DNA from: Sphingomonadales bacterium | GTDB lineage: Bacteria; Pseudomonadota; Alphaproteobacteria; Sphingomonadales; Sphingomonadaceae | DNA length: 45,211 nt | Assembly (NCBI GenBank): GCA_013297725.1 | Contig: JAAFIB010000002.1 | Span: forward strand, 1-45,211 | Direction of reading: 5' to 3' | Shown here: positions 1,681 to 11,364 of the stretch, one piece after another | How the letters are laid out: each line of letters opens with the position of its first letter | Numbering within the stretch: position 1 is the first letter of the stretch | The notes under the pieces: generated by a model | The model's database searches: none | What the model saw: the letters and a program-made list of their open reading frames with translations, nothing else | Told to the model about the DNA's origin: nothing | Made by a program: the position numbers and the translations under genes

Positions 1681-3348
<1,668 letters not shown>

Positions 3349-3404
3349 TTAAAAAGCGCAGAAAACTGCGCAAGTACACACTGAATTAGACTTGGGAATT
3401 GGGG

Positions 3405-3692
3405 TTAACCAACAATGCCCAAAATGTCGGATTCTTTCATGATCAAGAGGTCTTCACCGTCGACCTTCACTTCGGTGCCGGACCATTTGCCGAACAGGAT
3501 TTTGTCGCCTGTTTTAACGTCTGGCTTAATGCGGTCGCCGTCTTCGTTATAGGCGCCTTCGCCTACAGCGACGACTTCACCTTCTTGTGGTTTTTCTTGC
3601 GCTGTATCGGGGATGATGATCCCACCAGCGGTTTTTGCTTCGGCCTCGACACGGCGGACGAGGACGCGATCATGCAACGGACGAAATTTCAT
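3405..3692 (-). CDS. groS: 10-kDa co-chaperonin GroES
   Basis: A 95-residue lid of the GroEL chamber. The N-terminus [18 protein letters not shown], the mobile-loop region [17 protein letters not shown] and the closing [10 protein letters not shown] segment are diagnostic. The frame is open 11 codons further upstream, but the start at 3692 matches the family and has AAAGGAAG upstream. It is the first gene of the groESL operon, preceded by a CIRCE inverted repeat. Confidence 0.98.
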
Positions 3693-3765
3693 GTCGTGCT
3701 TCCTTTGCTTTGGTTGATGGCGCATCAGGAGGATGCAAAATCACTCCCGCACACCTGAATAGCAA

Positions 3766-3857: not shown

Positions 3858-3883
3858 GTAACCATCGTGGCAGTATCAACGAA
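3858..3883 (+). promoter_or_regulatory. Predicted sigma-F (ECF) promoter of the bufferin operon
   Basis: GTAACC, sixteen bases, CGAA. As I recall it, this is the motif reported for the Caulobacter ECF factor SigF, with the same spacer. It lies 80 bases upstream of the bufferin precursor start and faces it. A gene for a SigF-like factor is at the end of the same operon, so the motif predicts autoregulation. The 5' untranslated region would be about 70 bases. Confidence 0.75.
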
Positions 3884-3963
3884 ACTTTCAACGAGACCTT
3901 CGAAGATGGCCTCATGGTCGATCCCCCTGACCAATTTGAATATACTCAATCGATGGAGAATTT

Positions 3964-4260
3964 ATGACTGTTTCTGTTTTGAAAATCGCCGCTGCCGCCG
4001 CTGCTCTTTCGGCCGCTGCTGCCATCGCCACCGCCCCTGCTACAGCCGCTGCTGGAGCAAAGGAAAAATGCTATGGCGTTGCTTTGAAGGCAAAGAATGA
4101 TTGCGCCGCTGGCCCCGGCACAAGCTGTGCTGGCACCTCGACCACTGACTATCAAGGCAATGCATGGAAATATGTGGCCAAGGGTGAGTGCGTAAAAATG
4201 GGCGGATCGCTATCTGCAAAAGAAGGCAACATGGCGCCCAAACCAATGATGAAAAAATAA
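3964..4260 (+). CDS. bufA1: Bufferin-type RiPP metallophore precursor (DUF2282)
   Basis: A 98-residue exported precursor. Residues 1-30 form an Ala-rich signal peptide with a K7 n-region and cleavage likely near residue 28-30. The mature part has four cysteines, C36, C47, C55 and C76, within [18 protein letters not shown] and the following TSCAGTS and YQGNAWKYV segments, the DUF2282/BufA1 signature. In the characterised Caulobacter bufferins, to my knowledge, the two central cysteines are converted to thiooxazoles by the BufB enzyme and the peptide binds copper in the periplasm. The C-terminus has an extra Met/Lys-rich tail. GGAG lies five bases before the ATG. It is first in the operon, behind the sigma-F-like promoter. 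Confidence 0.9.
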
Positions 4261-4307
4261 AGGTATTCTGCGTCAGCGTGCAATTAAACTGAATCAGATA
4301 AACCCCA

Positions 4308-4405
4308 AAATTTCGTCACCCCCGCGAAGGCGGGGGGCCAACACCGGCACTCCAAATTTCAACAATTGGTGATGGATTCCCGCCTTCGCGGGAATGACGA
4401 AGTTT
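4308..4405. repeat. Palindromic repeat pair between bufA and bufB
   Basis: Two copies of a palindromic unit in opposite orientation: TTCGTCACCCCCGCGAAGGC (4312 on) and its near-complement ending in CTTCGCGGGAATGACGAA (to 4401). Each arm holds its own CCCGC...GCGGG-type hairpin, and together the arms can pair over about 25 bp around a 40-base centre. Units of the type GTCATTCCCGCGAAGGCGGG are, as I recall, common dispersed repeats in sphingomonads. There is no T-run, so it is not a classical terminator. Its position could still block or stabilise transcripts between precursor and enzyme. Confidence 0.85.
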
Positions 4406-4444
4406 ATGTTGCTATCATAAGCTGCACCTCACTAGGATTTGCGG

Positions 4445-5341
4445 ATGGACATGATCGCGTCTTCGGCTTCGGGCCTTTCCTCACTCCCCCCTAAAACCGG
4501 GATAGGTCTGAAGCCGCAGCATTATGATGCGATTCTCGATCCAGATCACCCCTCGGGTCGCCCCTTTTGGGTCGAGGTTCATCCGCAAAACTATTTTGGC
4601 GTATCTGATTCCATAGGGGCAGGCCCGCCCCATCGCTGGCTGTCCGCCATTTCCGCGATTTTGCCGGTCAGTTTTCATTCGGTTGGGCTATCCTTGGGTA
4701 GTGCCGAAGGGTTAAACAATGGCGACCTCGAAAGGCTGGCGGCCCTGTGCGAGCGATATAATCCGGCGATGGTTTCCGACCATCTGAGTTTTTCGGGCAA
4801 TGCGCATGACCGCTTTGCTGACTTGCTTCCTGTTCCCTACACAAAGGAATCGCTGAACCATTTCGCTTTGCAAGTGGACCGCGTGCAGCGCCGTCTGGGG
4901 CGGCAGATGCTGATCGAAAACCCCAGCTGCTATCTTGCCTATCGCGATAGCCAGATGAGCGAAACCGAATTTCTGGCCGAACTGATCCACCGCACAGGCT
5001 GCGGCCTGTTGCTTGATATCAATAATATCGTTGTGACCACCGGCAACCTCGGTGGGGCGGCGGAAGAATATCTTTCCGCTATAGACCCTGATTGGGTCGG
5101 CGAAATCCATCTGGCGGGGCACGCAACCGAACAGCATGACAGCGGGCCGCTTTATATCGACGACCATGGCAGTGCCGTTAGTGAGCGCGTGTGGCAACTC
5201 TATGCACACTTTATCCAGCGCGCCGGACCAAAGCCGACTTTGATCGAATGGGACACCGATGTTCCGGATTATGCAACTTTGATGGCAGAGGTCGCCAAAG
5301 CCGATGCCGTGCTGATGGAGGCAAGCCATGCTTTCGCTTGA
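4445..5341 (+). CDS. bufB1: Bufferin maturase BufB (DUF692, MNIO enzyme)
   Basis: A 298-residue TIM-barrel-type multinuclear non-heme iron oxidative enzyme (MNIO, DUF692) that modifies cysteines of the precursor peptide. Family segments seen in order: GIGLKPQHY (19-27), FWVEVHPQNYF (41-51), GVGLSLGS-type SVGLSLGS, VSDHLSF, LIENPSCYL, LLLDINNIVV, GEIHLAGH, YIDDHGSAV and IEWDTDVP. These supply the His, Asp, Asn and Glu residues typical of the metal centre. The usual ENY triad reads QNY here. ATG 4445 is preferred over TTG 4439 because AGGA lies seven bases upstream of it. Its end overlaps bufC by 14 bases. Confidence 0.92.
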   Translation: MDMIASSASGLSSLPPKTGIGLKPQHYDAILDPDHPSGRPFWVEVHPQNYFGVSDSIGAGPPHRWLSAISAILPVSFHSVGLSLGSAEGLNNGDLERLAALCERYNPAMVSDHLSFSGNAHDRFADLLPVPYTKESLNHFALQVDRVQRRLGRQMLIENPSCYLAYRDSQMSETEFLAELIHRTGCGLLLDINNIVVTTGNLGGAAEEYLSAIDPDWVGEIHLAGHATEQHDSGPLYIDDHGSAVSERVWQLYAHFIQRAGPKPTLIEWDTDVPDYATLMAEVAKADAVLMEASHAFA

Positions 5342-6077
5342 AGCCGCGCAGGCAAATTTTATCGCAACGATCAATCAAGGGCCGGATGCGCTTGACCACA
5401 CATTGTTCGATGGCCCGATTGACAGGGTCGTGCTCGGCCTGAAAGCTCATGCCAATACGATCAACCATGCCCGCTTAGTGGCGCTTGAGGAGAGCTTTCC
5501 GCTGACGCGGCAGGCTTTGGGTGATGAACGGTTCAACCAGCTATCGCGTGCCTATCTTGAAACAGCCGAAGCGACGACGCGTGATAACAACAGCATAGGC
5601 GAACGCTTCCCCCAATTCCTGAAGGCGTCATCTGTTACCCTGACAGGGGTCGATTTGGCGTCAATCGAATGGGCGTGGCTGCAAAGCTATCATGCCGCCG
5701 ATGCTGTTCCGCTACAATTGACTGACATAGCCGGACTGGCCGAAGAAAAACTCATCAGCTTGCCGGTGAAAGCACATCCCGCAGCGATCCTGATCACTCT
5801 GACCGGTCCGCTCTCAGATCAACTCGCCGACATCACAGCAATGATACCAAACCCAGCCGCTGTTCTCGTCGTTCGACCGGAAGCCGAAGTCCAGCTTGTT
5901 CCTCTAAACGCCGCAACCGCCACGATCTTCGCCGCGACCAAAAAAATGACACCCATCGGTAACATGTTGGCCCTCGCCGCCGAACTACCGGGCATAACCA
6001 ATCCGGCTGAGCCGGTGATGACATTGCTTGGTGCAGGTGCACTGATGGAGGAACATGATGCAGGCGGTACTGAATAG
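5328..6077 (+). CDS. bufC1: BufC, DUF2063 partner of the MNIO enzyme
   Basis: A 249-residue protein of the DUF2063/HvfC-type family that accompanies DUF692 enzymes and is thought to present the precursor to the maturase. The N-terminal helical region (about residues 1-100), with ANFIATI, LEESFPLTRQALG and FNQLSRAYLE, matches the conserved DUF2063 domain. The C-terminal half (about 110-245) is a variable domain with HPAAILITL and VLVVRPEAEV strands. Its start lies inside the end of bufB and its end overlaps the DoxX gene, indicating tight translational coupling. Confidence 0.88.
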   Translation: MLSLEAAQANFIATINQGPDALDHTLFDGPIDRVVLGLKAHANTINHARLVALEESFPLTRQALGDERFNQLSRAYLETAEATTRDNNSIGERFPQFLKASSVTLTGVDLASIEWAWLQSYHAADAVPLQLTDIAGLAEEKLISLPVKAHPAAILITLTGPLSDQLADITAMIPNPAAVLVVRPEAEVQLVPLNAATATIFAATKKMTPIGNMLALAAELPGITNPAEPVMTLLGAGALMEEHDAGGTE

Positions 6078-6519
6078 TTACGACCGTGCCGTTGCGCTGG
6101 TTTCAGCAAAATGGGCTGAAGCCATCATGCTATTGATGGTCCGCTTGGCGCTCGCTGGTATATTCTGGCGATCGGGCCGTACCAAAGTGGAAGAAGGCAG
6201 TTTGCTGACCGTCAGCGAAACCACGATCTTTCAGTTCGGCGATGATCCGTTCAACAAGGTGCCGTTGCTACCATCCGAACTCGCCGCCTATCTGACCACT
6301 TATGCCGAACATGCTTTGCCGATATTGCTTGTGATAGGCCTGTTCACCCGCATCTCTGCACTCGCACTGATGGGCATGACTTTGGTAATCCAGATTTTCG
6401 TTTTCCCCGAGGCATGGTGGCAGGTGCATATCCTTTGGGTCGCGCTTGCACTCGTCCTTATCGTTCGCGGCGGAGGCGGCCTGTCATTGGACAAAATCCT
6501 TTCAGGTCGCCGCAGATGA
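6058..6519 (+). CDS. DoxX-family membrane protein of the bufferin operon
   Basis: A 153-residue inner-membrane protein with four predicted helices: AIMLLMVRLALAGIFW, a helix after YAEHALPILLVIGLF, LALMGMTLVIQIFVF, and VHILWVALALVLIV. The AGIFWRSGRTK stretch and four-helix layout are typical of DoxX. Such genes regularly accompany bufABC; the role is unproven, perhaps in redox or electron supply or in export. ATG 6058 is preferred to 6055 because GGAGG lies six bases before it. It overlaps bufC at the front and the sigma-factor gene at the end by an ATGA junction. Confidence 0.85.
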   Translation: MQAVLNSYDRAVALVSAKWAEAIMLLMVRLALAGIFWRSGRTKVEEGSLLTVSETTIFQFGDDPFNKVPLLPSELAAYLTTYAEHALPILLVIGLFTRISALALMGMTLVIQIFVFPEAWWQVHILWVALALVLIVRGGGGLSLDKILSGRRR

Positions 6520-7043
6520 TCGCCAATGAAGAAGGGCTACGCCGCCTGATGCGGCTGTCGTTGACCGGCGATAAACAGGCTTATGCCGTTCTGCTTGAAC
6601 AGGCGGGCAAATGGCTTGCGCGCTATTTTCGGCAAAAAATTGCGCCCGATGCCGTCGATGATCTGGTTCAGGACACGCTGATCTCGCTCCACAGAAAGCG
6701 TTCCAGCTATGATCCGGCACGTCCATTTCTGCCCTGGCTGGCGGCTATCGCCCGCTATCGCTGGATTGACCGGCTGCGCCAAACCTACCGGCACGAGGCG
6801 CAAATGCTGGAGGATTATGACAAAGCCGAAGATAGCCATGAAGAGGTCGTTGGAGCACGGATCAGCATTGATCGTCTGCTCGATTTGATCCCGCAGTCCC
6901 AAGCCGAGGTGATCCGATGCGTGAAGATTGAGGGGCTAAGCATAGACGAAGCAAGCATACGTACCGGCCAGTCTGAATCACTGGTAAAGGTTAATATTCA
7001 TCGCGGTTTGAAGAAGTTATCTACATTAGTTGAGAGTGAATAA
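6516..7043 (+). CDS. sigF: ECF sigma factor, SigF-like
   Basis: A 175-residue extracytoplasmic-function sigma factor. Region 2 spans about residues 25-95 and includes DAVDDLVQDTLISLHRKR and the promoter -10-binding PWLAAIARYRWIDRLRQ. Region 4 lies at about 120-172, with LLDLIPQSQAEVI and the helix-turn-helix GLSIDEASIRTGQSESLVKV. No extra domains are present. The ATG overlaps the DoxX stop as ATGA; the upstream part of the open frame is antisense to nothing and simply overlaps DoxX. The anti-sigma gene follows after one base. It most likely drives the GTAACC-N16-CGAA promoter in front of bufA. Confidence 0.93.
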   Translation: MIANEEGLRRLMRLSLTGDKQAYAVLLEQAGKWLARYFRQKIAPDAVDDLVQDTLISLHRKRSSYDPARPFLPWLAAIARYRWIDRLRQTYRHEAQMLEDYDKAEDSHEEVVGARISIDRLLDLIPQSQAEVIRCVKIEGLSIDEASIRTGQSESLVKVNIHRGLKKLSTLVESE

Positions 7044-7044
7044 G

Positions 7045-7680
7045 ATGAAGCAGGGTTTTGATTTGGATGCAATGGTAGCGGAGCTGGAGCCGGTGAAGCC
7101 GTTGCGGATTACACATGCAATATGGGCTGTGTTCGCTGTTGTAGCATTGGCCGCGACGCTGATAGTATTGTCAAAGGGCATGCGTCCCGATGTGATGCTG
7201 GGTGATCCCGATCCAATGTTCCTGCTACGTGGCGGGCTGTTGCTATTGCTGGGCGGCGGTTGCGGTTGGGCGGCGCTCAGCATGGCGAGTCCATCGGTTG
7301 GCAAGCAGGGGCAGAGCTGGAAAATGGCGATCGCCGCCGCTGCTTTGGTTCCCTTCGCTGCGTTGATTGTGGCGATGACCGGGCACGTCGATGTGGCCAT
7401 GGCCAATATGCGCTTCGGGCTGGATTGCATGGTCTTCAGCGCCTTGGGGGGGCTAGCGACCGCAGTGCCAATGGTGCTGCAACTGCGTCGCGGCGCGCCG
7501 ACTTCGCCTGAACGTGCAGGCTGGCTGACCGGTGTCGCTTCAGGAGGCCTTGGTGCTTTTGCCTATGGCCTACACTGTCCGTTCAATGATGTCGTTTACA
7601 TCGGCCTGTGGTATTCACTAGCAGTCGGAGTTTGCGCGGTTGCGGGGCGATTGGTCGTACCAAGGCTGATCCGTTGGTAA
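7045..7680 (+). CDS. nrsF: NrsF-type membrane anti-sigma factor (DUF1109)
   Basis: A 211-residue inner-membrane protein with about six hydrophobic helices, the layout of the DUF1109/NrsF family that sequesters SigF-type factors. Cysteines are at 73, 128, 178 and 197. C128 (in FGLDCMVF) and C178 (in GLHCPFND) are 50 residues apart, the same spacing as C131 and C181, which I recall as required for sensing in Caulobacter NrsF. ATG 7045 is chosen over a TTG 15 bases upstream that lies inside sigF. It ends with zero gap against the convergent hisF stop. It presumably senses metal or thiol stress and releases the sigma factor. Confidence 0.9.
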   Translation: MKQGFDLDAMVAELEPVKPLRITHAIWAVFAVVALAATLIVLSKGMRPDVMLGDPDPMFLLRGGLLLLLGGGCGWAALSMASPSVGKQGQSWKMAIAAAALVPFAALIVAMTGHVDVAMANMRFGLDCMVFSALGGLATAVPMVLQLRRGAPTSPERAGWLTGVASGGLGAFAYGLHCPFNDVVYIGLWYSLAVGVCAVAGRLVVPRLIRW

Positions 7681-8448
7681 TCAACTGCGCGCAGGCAAAC
7701 CAGCGGCCCTAAGCGCAGCATGCGCCTGTGCTATGCCGTATGTGCCAAAGTGAAAGATCGAGGCGGCAAGGACTGCGCTTGCATGCCCTTTGGTAACGCC
7801 CTCGACCAAGTGATCGAGTGTGCCTACGCCGCCGCTGGCAACAACTGGCACTTTGACAGCATCTGCAATCGTGCGGGTGAGTTCCAGATCAAATCCCGCT
7901 TTTGTGCCATCGCGGTCCATGCTGGTGACAAGCAATTCGCCTGCACCCAGCTCCGCCAGTCGCAGCGCGTGACCAACCGCGTCGATGCCGGTTGGTTTGC
8001 GCCCGCCATGGGTAAAAATCTCCCAACCGTCGCGCCCGTCAGACCAGCGTTTTGCATCGACAGAGGCAACCACACATTGGCTGCCGAAACGTTCAGCAAT
8101 ATCGGCAACGACTTCGGGCCGCGTCACCGCTGCGCTGTTCACGGCAACTTTGTCCGCACCCGCCAGCAATAACGCCCGCGCATCGTCGGCACTGCGCACA
8201 CCGCCGCCAACCGTCAGCGGCATAAAACAGACCTCGGCCGTGCGCCGAACCACATCGATGATCGTGTCGCGGCCCTCATGGCTGGCGCCGATGTCCAGAA
8301 AGCAAAGCTCATCCGCCCCCGCCGCATCATAGGCTTTGGCCTGTTCAACGGGATCACCCGCATCGATCAGGTCAACAAAGTTGACGCCTTTAACAACGCG
8401 ACCATTGGCGACGTCTAAACAGGGGATGACGCGGATGCGGACGGTCAT
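7681..8448 (-). CDS. hisF: Imidazole glycerol phosphate synthase cyclase subunit HisF
   Basis: A 255-residue (beta/alpha)8-barrel that, with HisH, uses ammonia to turn PRFAR into imidazole glycerol phosphate and AICAR. Start [19 protein letters not shown] carries the catalytic Asp (D in CLD); the second catalytic Asp is in [13 protein letters not shown]. Length is normal. The start codon overlaps the stop of the preceding small gene as ATGA, so translation is coupled. The frame continues upstream but the family start is at 8448. No hisE follows; the neighbour downstream is the convergent nrsF. Confidence 0.97.
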
Positions 8449-8648
8449 TGCAACTTCCCGAATAACAGCCATACATTGGTAAGAACCAATATGATTTGAA
8501 GAGCGACTATCAGCCCAAAGACGACAGGCTTGTCAGTTTTTGAGAATGACCCGAAAGTGCCTGAGACCCGGCTTGAATGCAGAGTTTTCCAAGCCAAATA
8601 GGCAAAAAAAATGGCAAAAAAGCCATTTAGGAAGATGGAAAAAATCAC
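8445..8648 (-). CDS. Small two-helix membrane protein inside the his operon
   Basis: A 67-residue protein with a GTG start. It has two hydrophobic segments, [16 protein letters not shown] near the N-terminus and [20 protein letters not shown] near the C-terminus, joined by a basic Ser/Thr-rich loop. It overlaps hisA by four bases (GTGA) and hisF by four bases (ATGA), which argues strongly that it is translated. I do not recognise the family. It is not a known histidine enzyme; a membrane anchor or small regulatory protein is possible but unsupported. Confidence 0.75.
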
Positions 8649-9373
8649 GCCCTACCCGCCATCGCAATCGCCGTCGCCAGATCCAACCGCCCGTCATAAA
8701 TCGCGCGGCCAGTAATCACGCCCTCGATGCCATCCTGCGCGTGCAGGCTGAGGATGTGGATATCGTCCAGCCCCTTTACCCCGCCGCTGGCGATCACCGG
8801 AATACGCACCGAACGGGCCAGTTCCACCGTCGCATCGATATTGCACCCCGTCAGCATCCCGTCGCGTCCCACATCGGTGAACAGGATAGAGGCAACGCCT
8901 GCATCCTCAAACCGCCGCGCCAGATCGACCACGGGCATGTCAGATTTCTCCGCCCAACCCTCGGTCGCGACAAAGCCGTCACGCGCATCAACGGCAACAA
9001 CAATGCCGTTTTCAAACTCGCGCGCCATGTCTTTGACGAACTGCGGGTCTTTCAACGCTGCTGTGCCGATCACCAGCCGCGCCACGCCCATATCGAACCA
9101 GCGTTCAACCGTTTGCGGATTGCGAATGCCTCCGCCAAGCTGGATATAGCCGGGGAAATTCTCGATAATCCCCTCAACCGCCTCGGCATTTTCGGGGCGT
9201 CCGGCAAAGGCACCATCAAGGTCAACGACATGCAGAAACTCTGCGCCCTGCTGAGAAAACAACATAGCCTGAGCCGCCGGATCATCAGCATACACGGTTG
9301 CGCGATCCATATCGCCCTCGGCAAGCCGAACCACTTCGCCGCCCTTTAGGTCGATGGCTGGAAATACGATCAT
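8645..9373 (-). CDS. hisA: ProFAR isomerase HisA
   Basis: A 242-residue (beta/alpha)8-barrel converting ProFAR to PRFAR in histidine synthesis. The catalytic aspartates sit in FPAIDLKGGEVVRL (D8) and in the FTDVGRDGMLTG motif. The phosphate-binding IASGGVKG segment is present. Length is standard. It is preceded at 94 bases by hisH, with a perfect hairpin in the gap, and overlaps the small membrane gene downstream. Confidence 0.97.
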   Translation of the reverse strand: MIVFPAIDLKGGEVVRLAEGDMDRATVYADDPAAQAMLFSQQGAEFLHVVDLDGAFAGRPENAEAVEGIIENFPGYIQLGGGIRNPQTVERWFDMGVARLVIGTAALKDPQFVKDMAREFENGIVVAVDARDGFVATEGWAEKSDMPVVDLARRFEDAGVASILFTDVGRDGMLTGCNIDATVELARSVRIPVIASGGVKGLDDIHILSLHAQDGIEGVITGRAIYDGRLDLATAIAMAGRA

Positions 9374-9389
9374 GAACCTTTATCCCCTT

Positions 9390-9449
9390 TTTGTTGCTTC
9401 GTGGCTTTGTGTGAGATAATTTTTTCACACAAAGCCACGAAGCAACAAA
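9390..9449. repeat. Perfect 25-bp hairpin between hisH and hisA
   Basis: A 25-base arm at 9390-9414 containing GCTTCGTGGCTTTGTGTGA and its exact complement at 9425-9449, separated by ten AT-rich bases. On either strand it would form an extremely stable stem. It fills the intergenic region between hisH and hisA. The sequence resembles dispersed GCTTCGTGGCTTTGTG-type repeats rather than a normal GC-rich terminator. Confidence 0.85.
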
Positions 9450-9467
9450 GATATTTTGCACGCAACA

Positions 9468-10085
9468 TTAGGGCATCCACTCCAAAAAGCGTTTCAGGAA
9501 GTTGATACCGTAAGCTTGGCTTTTTTCGGGGTGGAATTGCACACCGATGCGGTTTTCAGAACCAATTGCAGCCGTAAGCGGCGCACCTAGCGACGTTGTA
9601 GCGACAACATTTTCGCCCCAATATGAGTAGCTATGCAGGAAATAAGCCTCGCCTGTTTCGATAAGCGGGTGAGGGTTTATCGGCACTACATCGTTCCAGC
9701 CCATGTGCGGAATTTTAATCTCTGGATTGGTGGGCGTCATCAATCGCACTTCACCCTTTATCCAGCCCAGACCTTTATGCTCGCCATGTTCATGGCCTGA
9801 TGTGGCCATAAGCTGCATTCCCACACAAATACCAAGGAACGGTTTTGCACCCTCGCCAGTGCCTGTTCCTGTGGTGCGGTGCAAAGCATCAATCATCCCG
9901 GGCAGTGCGGATAACGCCGCCATACAATGCGCAAACGCGCCTACTCCGGGCAGCACAATCCGGTCGGCATTGGCAACAATATCGGGATCAGCAGTCACAA
10001 CAACATCGGCTGCACCCGACGCCCTTAGCGCATTTTTGACCGATTGGAGGTTGCCTGCGCCATAATCGATAAGTACCAACACCAT
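9468..10085 (-). CDS. hisH: Imidazole glycerol phosphate synthase glutaminase subunit HisH
   Basis: A 205-residue class I glutamine amidotransferase that feeds ammonia to HisF. The nucleophile C87 sits in FLGICVGMQLM and the His185/Glu187 pair in VQFHPEKSQ. The N-terminal IDYGAGNLQSV motif is characteristic. It includes a short Gly/Thr-rich insertion (TTGTGTGEG) before the active-site strand, a common variable loop. It lies between hisB and hisA, separated from each by palindromic repeats. Confidence 0.97.
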   Translation of the reverse strand: MVLVLIDYGAGNLQSVKNALRASGAADVVVTADPDIVANADRIVLPGVGAFAHCMAALSALPGMIDALHRTTGTGTGEGAKPFLGICVGMQLMATSGHEHGEHKGLGWIKGEVRLMTPTNPEIKIPHMGWNDVVPINPHPLIETGEAYFLHSYSYWGENVVATTSLGAPLTAAIGSENRIGVQFHPEKSQAYGINFLKRFLEWMP

Positions 10086-10094
10086 TGATATTAT

Positions 10095-10201
10095 ACCGTT
10101 AGTGCTGAGCCTGTCGAAGCACGCCCTTCAGCCTTGCACTGCCCGTTGAAACGCCGTTCGCCTTCGGTGGCCTTCGGCTCGACAGGCTCAGGGCTGACGG
10201 T
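10095..10201. repeat. GAGCCTGTCGAA inverted repeat, copy 1
   Basis: A 107-bp element with imperfect inverted ends: ACCGTTAGTGCTGAGCCTG at the left and, at the right, CAGGCTCAGGGCTGACGGT. It belongs to the same family as 17220-17305 and 35544-35629. The right arm is slightly degenerate (GGCTCGACAGG). It lies between hisB and hisH and carries no gene. Confidence 0.88.
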
Positions 10202-10218
10202 TAAAGTATAGGCTATGT

Positions 10219-10806
10219 TCACAAAATCCCCTTAGTCGAAGGAATTGCATCGCCCTTACGCGGGTCGATCTCAACTGCTTGGCGCAAAGCCCGAGCTAAC
10301 GCCTTGTAACAGCTTTCAACGATATGATGGTTGTTTGAACCATAAAGGTTCTCGACATGCAGCGTTATCCCCGCCGCAGTCGCAAAGCTGTGGAACCAAT
10401 GTTCGATCAGCTCGGTATCCCATTCGCCCAGCCGCTGCATCGACAGTTCGACTTTCCAAACAAAATAGGGCCGCCCCGAAATATCAAGCGCGCAGCGGGT
10501 TAGGGTTTCATCCATCGGTGCGTAAGCCGAACCATAACGCGTTATCCCGCGTTTATCGCCCAGCGCCTGCAACACTGCCTCGCCCACCGCAATACCGGTG
10601 TCCTCGGTGGTATGATGCTGATCAATATGCAGATCACCAATCGCCTTTACTTTCAGGTCCATAAGCGAATGGCGCGATAGCTGTTCCAGCATATGGTCAA
10701 GGAAACCGATGCCTGTTGATACGTCATAAATGCCGGTACCATCCAGATTAACGACAACGTCAATCGAGGTCTCATGGGTTTTGCGAGCGATGCTTCCTGT
10801 GCGCAT
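10219..10806 (-). CDS. hisB: Imidazoleglycerol-phosphate dehydratase HisB
   Basis: A 195-residue monofunctional dehydratase that makes imidazole acetol phosphate. The two manganese-binding His clusters are visible: [13 protein letters not shown] with DQHHTTED, and EHWFHSFA with NNHHIVE. The N-terminus [13 protein letters not shown] matches the family; the open frame upstream of 10806 is antisense to sspB and is not part of the gene. No strong ribosome binding site is visible. It is the first his gene here, divergent from sspB with 84 bases between starts. Confidence 0.96.
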
Positions 10807-10890
10807 GGGCGTCGCTATAGCCTTGCTGGCACGAATGGCAAGTTCACAAGCAACTTGATTTAGCGCGGCGCAGCGTCCAATTAGTGACGC

Positions 10891-11364
10891 ATGAGCGAAG
10901 ATAATCCGGATAGCCTGATTCCCTATGATGACGTAGTGCAAGAGGCGCTGCGAGCTGTGGTCAGCCGCGTTCTTGGTGATGTGTGCCTGAATGGACTTCC
11001 CGGCGACCATCATTTCTACATCACGTTCAAAACCCGCGCGCCCGGCGTGAATATCCCTGTGCACCTGATGGAACGTTTCCCCGATGAAATGACCATCGTG
11101 ATGCAGCACAAATATTGGGATCTAAAAGTAGAGGCCGAACATTTCGAAATCGGCCTATCGTTCAGTCAAGTTCCTGCGCATTTGTATATCCCGTTCTCTG
11201 CGATCACCGCCTTTGTCGATCCAGCGGTGGATTTCGCGCTTCAGTTCCATGTCGAGGCAGAAGCTGGTCCCGAACCACATGACGCAGCGGGCAATGACGA
11301 AGCCATTTTCGAACAGGAAGACGGCTCCAATGTCGTAACGGTGGATTTTGGACGGAAGAAGTAA
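10891..11364 (+). CDS. sspB: SspB, ClpXP adaptor (alphaproteobacterial type)
   Basis: A 157-residue protein of the alpha-type SspB family, which tethers ssrA-tagged and other substrates to the ClpXP protease. The conserved core includes [17 protein letters not shown], the [14 protein letters not shown] strand pair, and [22 protein letters not shown] disordered acidic linker follows and the protein ends with a short hydrophobic/basic tail, [10 protein letters not shown], which in SspB binds ClpX. Length is typical. It is divergent from hisB; the exported-protein gene overlaps its end. Confidence 0.93.

Follow-up and report, generated by a model that had tools for sequence, protein, structure and literature searches.

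How might a sigma factor encoded at the end of a long biosynthetic operon maintain its own supply? This question is raised by a Buf1-type bufferin cassette at positions 3858–7680 of a 45,211-nucleotide stretch of DNA from a Sphingomonadales bacterium (contig JAAFIB010000002.1 of assembly GCA_013297725.1; the whole stretch is hereafter named the window). The cassette has six genes, bufA, bufB, bufC, doxX, sigF and nrsF, all on the + strand. Our analysis indicates that it is very probably a Buf1 bufferin operon under the control of sigma-F and its anti-sigma factor NrsF, with an outer promoter in front of bufA plus an inner promoter that lies inside bufC and feeds sigF and nrsF. The cassette itself was already known, and the conserved intragenic promoter is what is added here. 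If true, such a promoter would account for the continued supply of a sigma factor whose gene lies near the end of a long operon, and would be a clean natural case in which protein and promoter information overlap. The features concerned are as follows.

3858..3883, + strand: outer sigma-F promoter motif GTAACC-N16-CGAA, 80 nt upstream of the bufA ATG
3964..4260, + strand: bufA, Buf1 (DUF2282) bufferin precursor, 98 aa (PF10048, 1e-23)
4308..4405, no strand: palindromic dispersed repeat in the bufA–bufB gap, predicted strong hairpin
4445..5341, + strand: bufB, MNIO (DUF692) bufferin maturase (PF05114, 1.4e-92; NCBIfam MNIO_BufB NF050167, 333.6 bits, cut-off 310)
5328..6077, + strand: bufC, DUF2063 (PME1) partner protein (PF09836, 1.4e-12)
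5959..5984, + strand: putative intragenic sigma-F site in bufC, GTAACA-N16-CGAA in the window (exact GTAACC form in 37/41 cassettes)
6055..6519, + strand: doxX, DoxX-family membrane protein (PF07681, 3.9e-17)
6516..7043, + strand: sigF, extracytoplasmic function (ECF) sigma factor (Sigma70_r2, PF04542, 2.6e-11; r4_2, PF08281, 1.8e-9)
7045..7680, + strand: nrsF, anti-sigma factor (PF06532, 2.7e-39)

The cassette and the sigma-F site within bufC

A preliminary description of this locus had given the six genes in this order and in one direction, which was borne out by their Pfam and NCBIfam families and by their common strand. From bufB onward the junctions overlap or abut, as it had also stated: the overlaps are 14 nt (bufB/bufC), 23 nt (bufC/doxX) and 4 nt (doxX/sigF), and sigF is separated from the nrsF ATG by a 1-nt gap. 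Its statement that the operon type is known from Caulobacter agrees with the shared gene families and promoter motif. The compact all-in-one arrangement, presented there as distinctive, turned out to be common and not particular to this window, as 41 distinct cassettes were counted in sphingomonads. That description contains neither the intragenic site in bufC nor the repeat that separates bufA from bufB, and it does not mention the other bufferin loci of the genome.

The cassettes came from 80 named BufB loci, 23 NrsF regions and 60 more NrsF regions hand-picked among the matches listed. Parsing gave 44 cassettes with bufC, doxX and sigF in the same direction, 41 of them distinct; cassettes were dropped as duplicates solely on identity over the final 300 nt of bufC (L193, L199 and L219), and near-identical species stay in the 41. 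The nearest named relatives are titled sphingomonads, with one (L071) titled Pseudomonadota only. NrsF was present in at least 198 of 397 sampled genomes of the window's own bacterial family. Other arrangements were found as well: bufA-doxX-sigF-nrsF, frequently accompanied by a divergent Buf2 cluster, and sigF-nrsF with no co-directional buf genes. Among the other named BufB loci, largely from Rhodobacteraceae, most lacked a sigma gene within the sequence fetched, and sigF-nrsF was divergent in nine.

The sole exact GTAACC-N16-CGAA of the window, the sigma-F promoter motif of Caulobacter (Kohler 2012, PMC3511200), lies at 3858–3883, and its first base is also the first base of the range covered by the preliminary description. 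Of the 39 cassettes that hold bufA (L039 and L067 have none), 34 had an exact motif upstream of their first bufA. Four others deviated at the sixth base alone (GTAACT, GTAACA in L064, GTAACT and GTAACG), and in L074 there was no motif before the first bufA and an exact one before the second.

A further site of this type was found inside the bufC frame, directly upstream of doxX-sigF-nrsF. It was exact in 37 of the 41 distinct cassettes and one base off in three more: the window (GTAACA), L187 (GTAACT) and L077 (AGAA instead of CGAA). In all 40 the reading frame was identical, with the codon pattern NGT AAC CNN (NNN)4 NNC GAA, and the site started 92–155 nt before the bufC stop. Of the 27 cassettes examined first, 24 were exact; of the 14 fetched after the pattern had been noticed, 13 were exact and one read GTAACT. 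Spacers of N14, N15, N17 and N18 and the reversed motif gave zero exact sites in the same 41 stretches.

The bufC product has diverged among the cassettes to a mean of 44% amino acid identity. Under a null model that holds the proteins and the local codon usage, 0.67 exact inner sites were expected among the 40 cassettes with at most one mismatch, and 37 were observed. Because this null ignores shared ancestry and so overstates independence, the codon columns of bufB, bufC, doxX, sigF and nrsF, excluding Met and Trp columns, were also ranked by third-base uniformity. Four motif codons were among the top five of the 1001 columns, and the two motif codons with variable residues ranked first and second of the 577 columns with at least four residues (0.98 and 0.95; 99th percentile 0.83). 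The inner site is under nucleotide-level constraint: the residues vary and the bases are fixed.

We then considered the sigF units of other architectures. The motif was exact before 21 of 35 sigF-nrsF units, with GTAACN before 2 more; bufA-doxX-sigF units had it exact before 8 of 17, with GTAACN before 8 more; and one of two doxX-sigF units was preceded by it. Since the motif often directly precedes a unit holding sigF in these other arrangements, the inner site probably has the role of a sigF promoter. The simplest reading of these sequences is that an autoregulatory promoter of sigF has been retained inside the coding sequence of the preceding gene, bufC.

Alternative explanations of the inner site

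Could the inner motif be a by-product of the conserved C-terminal protein sequence of BufC (G-N-L-L...E), with no regulatory role? The Asn and Glu residues at the site are near-invariant (40/41 and 41/41), as such an explanation would have it, yet the first codon of the motif may be GGT, CGT, TGT or AGT (Gly, Arg, Cys or Ser) and still reads NGT in 40/41, and the codon preceding Glu, which stands for eleven different residues, has a final C in 39/41. Synonymous choice is fixed as well, with AAC for Asn in 40/40 and GAA for Glu in 40/41. As controls we used 96 open reading frames (ORFs) scored as bufC without a parsed doxX-sigF behind them, some of which are overlapping wrong-frame ORFs, and 93 of them differed from the motif at two positions or more. 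The remaining three, all exact (L052, L065 and L215), were cassettes overlooked by the parser; adding them by hand gives 40 exact inner sites of 44, the one in L052 lying farther upstream, 227 nt before the bufC stop. Protein constraint as a sufficient cause was ruled out by the codon-aware null, the ranking of codon columns and these controls, and we regard a by-product with no regulatory role as hardly credible. Any promoter at the inner position would also yield RNA from the 3′-end of bufC, and the site might start a small RNA or a truncated message rather than supply sigF-nrsF. This we consider very improbable, as the motif precedes the sigF unit in 40 of the 54 units without bufC directly in front, its usual partner being sigF-nrsF. 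It is also quite improbable that the locus is an ordinary bufferin operon with nothing beyond that of Caulobacter: its gene families and its outer promoter motif all have counterparts in the Caulobacter system, but the inner site is under nucleotide-level selection. No mention of a promoter inside bufC was found in the accessible text of the literature searched, which included parts of PMC3511200, PMC12452194, PMC8224329 and PMC13097082, with most subscription papers outside it.

A different possibility is that the inner site is a genuine sigma-F promoter in the family and has decayed in this strain, leaving the outer promoter alone in use. In favour of this, the window has a mismatched −35 element (GTAACA), set against four exact cassettes of the same genus. 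Position 6 of this element varies elsewhere, however, with the rest of the motif kept: four outer promoters and eight bufA-doxX-sigF units have a base other than C, and GTAACA itself is the outer motif of L064. Decay in this strain therefore seems unlikely to us, while retaining an appreciable chance. Because position 6 varies in both outer and sigF promoters, we think that the inner site of the window is still in use.

Several observations weigh against an inner promoter that supplies sigF, besides the shared ancestry that the codon-usage null leaves aside. The site was absent from one of the 41 cassettes (L067), and the same-genus cassettes L042, L165, L167 and L168 are exact where the window has GTAACA, which may be weaker than GTAACC. 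Nor is sigF always preceded by a sigma-F site: no motif was found in the searched stretch before 12 of 35 sigF-nrsF units, one of 17 bufA-doxX-sigF units and one of two doxX-sigF units. Enrichment of the motif over the whole genome was rejected as evidence: the exact motif with N15–17 had 22 occurrences against 60 for the reversed control, so that there was no excess, and the weight therefore rests on the position and conservation of the motif only. In Caulobacter, autoregulation of sigF was weak with chromate (Kohler et al., PMC3511200), and the activity of the sigF promoter was not exclusively dependent on sigma-F (PMC3511200).

Predicted regulation and bufferin maturation

The families PF04542, PF08281 and PF06532 all scored above their cut-offs, placing an ECF sigma gene next to an NrsF-family gene; against the NCBIfam equivalog model NrsF reached 64.9, below the cut-off of 300. 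We take the sigma-F/NrsF pair to be of the ECF16 type. Two Cys codons of nrsF, at 7426–7428 and 7576–7578, were invariant in 39 of 39 aligned NrsF. The pair is spaced by 50 residues, the same as C131 and C181 of Caulobacter NrsF, the mutation of which to serine led to higher expression of the sigma-F regulon (PMC3511200).

The comparison with Caulobacter was made by families, motif and cysteine spacing. On this footing the window shares six gene families with CC3254–CC3257 plus sigF (CC3253)–nrsF (CC3252) of Caulobacter crescentus/vibrioides, in addition to the GTAACC-N16-CGAA promoter and the NrsF cysteine pair (PMC3511200, PMC8224329). The layouts differ. The Caulobacter buf genes form a unit apart from sigF-nrsF, both units having a GTAACC-N16-CGAA-like promoter, and the promoter element of the sigF operon is required for sigF expression (PMC3511200), whereas in the window sigF-nrsF forms the tail of the biosynthetic operon and the nearest site lies inside bufC. 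A metal response is reported for the Caulobacter system (PMC3511200, PMC8224329). There, sigF, nrsF and both buf operons are upregulated by copper, to which a sigF insertion mutant is sensitive (PMC8224329); dichromate induces the sigF operon modestly (PMC3511200), and the buf genes respond also to chromate, dichromate and cadmium. By analogy, copper is most likely the natural signal of the window system. Similar to the window, the Buf1 clusters of a 2025 MNIO survey contain a DUF2282 precursor, an MNIO, a DUF2063 protein, DoxX, a sigma factor and NrsF (PMC12452194), and the gig/dax clusters of Cupriavidus and Legionella, likened here by description, are related metal-induced clusters (PMC8224329, PMC5413113).

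In the mechanism that we propose, NrsF would retain sigma-F at the inner membrane until a metal, most likely copper, released it via the two conserved NrsF cysteines; release by metal is reported for Caulobacter. The released sigma-F would initiate transcription at both 3858 and 5959 in this organism. The outer promoter would give a whole-operon message from which BufA is made, BufB–BufC would modify its central Cys residues, and the exported peptide would bind copper in the periplasm, the last two steps following what is reported for the Caulobacter bufferin, namely thiooxazoles on the central Cys residues and copper binding (PMC12452194). From the inner promoter a short doxX-sigF-nrsF message would arise, allowing sigma and anti-sigma factors to be supplied independently of the upstream genes. 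A positive sigF loop would thereby be closed by the inner promoter and damped by the co-produced NrsF. Self-amplification of sigF, already suggested in the preliminary description, is plausible because two sigma-F-type sites precede stretches containing sigF; that much of the suggestion stands, and the Caulobacter data on it are mixed, as the effect of chromate is weak and copper is inducing.

The supply of sigF may also be affected by the bufA–bufB gap, which is filled by a palindromic repeat of ~100 bp with matches at ten other places in the genome, two of these being to the arms only. The fold of 4258–4444 had a predicted energy of −72 kcal/mol (z −5.7). The two genes are 184 nt apart, or 178 nt if bufB begins at TTG 4439, a possible alternative start. 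Among the 38 other cassettes with bufA, the distance judged from the longest ORFs was 5–93 nt in 29 and 140 nt in one, and in eight the genes overlapped. The hairpin repeat could weaken read-through from bufA into bufB, and for this reason the separate supply of sigF-nrsF may matter more in this strain.

For the peptide and its maturation proteins, two points of the preliminary description were taken up. It had noted four cysteine residues in the precursor, including C47 and C55, and BufA indeed has cysteines at 36, 47, 55 and 76, all four invariant in 46 of 46 BufA1 matches above 110 bits at the cassette loci. It had also stated that a structural model lacking a DUF692 active site would refute it, and this was not the outcome. 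The AlphaFold model (predicted local distance difference test score, pLDDT, 89.6) matched best to the DUF692 structure 3BWW in the PDB (E 4e-20), followed by TglH and MbnB, and the residues His78, His113, Glu158, Asp191, Asn193, His222, Asp239, His241 and Glu268 were invariant in 32 of 32 aligned sequences (the window protein plus 31 of 112 other BufB ORFs within the length range). An MNIO fold with conserved His, Asp, Glu and Asn residues is supported for BufB by the model and this alignment. The N-terminus of BufA is hydrophobic and Ala-rich as judged by eye only, and the precursor scored 30.6 against the BufA2 model (cut-off 60), hence it is not classed as BufA2. The bufC and doxX products exceeded their Pfam cut-offs, with the NCBIfam models HvfC and HvfX scoring below theirs.

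Other bufferin and sigma-F loci

The genome contains two genes each for MNIO and NrsF proteins and three for DUF2282 proteins. It has nine exact sigma-F motifs with N16 spacing, four of which precede bufferin-related genes: the outer promoter of the window (C61:3858), C86:11014, C114:4226 and C114:4940. One more stands before a DUF1223 gene on contig C57. Those at C9:5170 and C72:61811 fall within other genes and appear to be chance matches. The remaining two are at C86:11829 and C86:22623.

A second sigma/NrsF pair was found beside a Buf2 operon (C86:8330–14468, L008). In this locus an exact sigma-F motif immediately after nrsF is followed by the genes for BufA2, an MNIO and a DUF2063 protein, and an ECF sigma gene lies 2 kb farther upstream. 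The precursor, with six Cys residues, scored 99.2 bits against the BufA2 model of NCBIfam (cut-off 60). That model was applied to the C86 protein alone, and BufA2 typing in relatives was by our own profile and Cys count. Among relatives, five loci (L035–L038 and L166) had a six-Cys BufA2-type gene adjoining nrsF in the same direction, and at fifteen loci a BufA2-type gene was divergent from nrsF, with six or seven Cys residues in the last 100 residues; a sixteenth divergent locus (L055) had four. The 2025 survey describes Buf2 clusters as being without sigma/NrsF regulators (PMC12452194). Unlike that account, NrsF adjoins BufA2-type precursors both in this genome and in relatives, and these loci are either exceptions to the survey statement or outside the survey criteria. 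With NrsF and sigma-F sites next to Buf2 clusters, sigma-F would reach further than the published survey reports, which helps in predicting the maturase with which a given scattered bufferin precursor is co-expressed. Taken together, we consider it likely that sphingomonads combine an ECF feedback promoter in the frame of a maturation gene for a ribosomally synthesized and post-translationally modified peptide (RiPP) with a sigma-F regulon of copper peptides that extends over several loci, including Buf2 clusters and scattered precursors.

Two smaller loci hold further precursors. At C114:3663–4965 (L009) there is a close BufA1 paralogue and a DoxX paralogue with an exact sigma-F motif before each; no maturase was found in the fetched 8.5 kb, and the BufA1 paralogue is perhaps modified by the BufB of the window. 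At C68:18891–19235 (L010) a DUF2282 protein starts with a lipobox-like LGSC, as judged by eye, and its gene has a 4-base overlap with a neighbour that we take to be prmC. The protein, which has its best matches elsewhere in G071, G065 and G197, is possibly a lipid-anchored Buf1 bufferin. Lipoprotein signals are mentioned for Buf2 in the MNIO survey (PMC12452194). The DUF1223 gene on C57 (34784–35558, L226) has its exact sigma-F motif ~23 nt before the predicted start and is a candidate for a further member of the sigma-F regulon.

A plasmid origin of the cassette was considered and rejected, as tblastn of BufB against 353 plasmid records gave only relatives below 60% identity; no sign of mobility was seen, and no further search was made. 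The cassette is flanked at 1681–3725 and 7681–11109 of the window by what are presumably groES-groEL-like genes and genes resembling those of histidine biosynthesis, all of them on the opposite strand.

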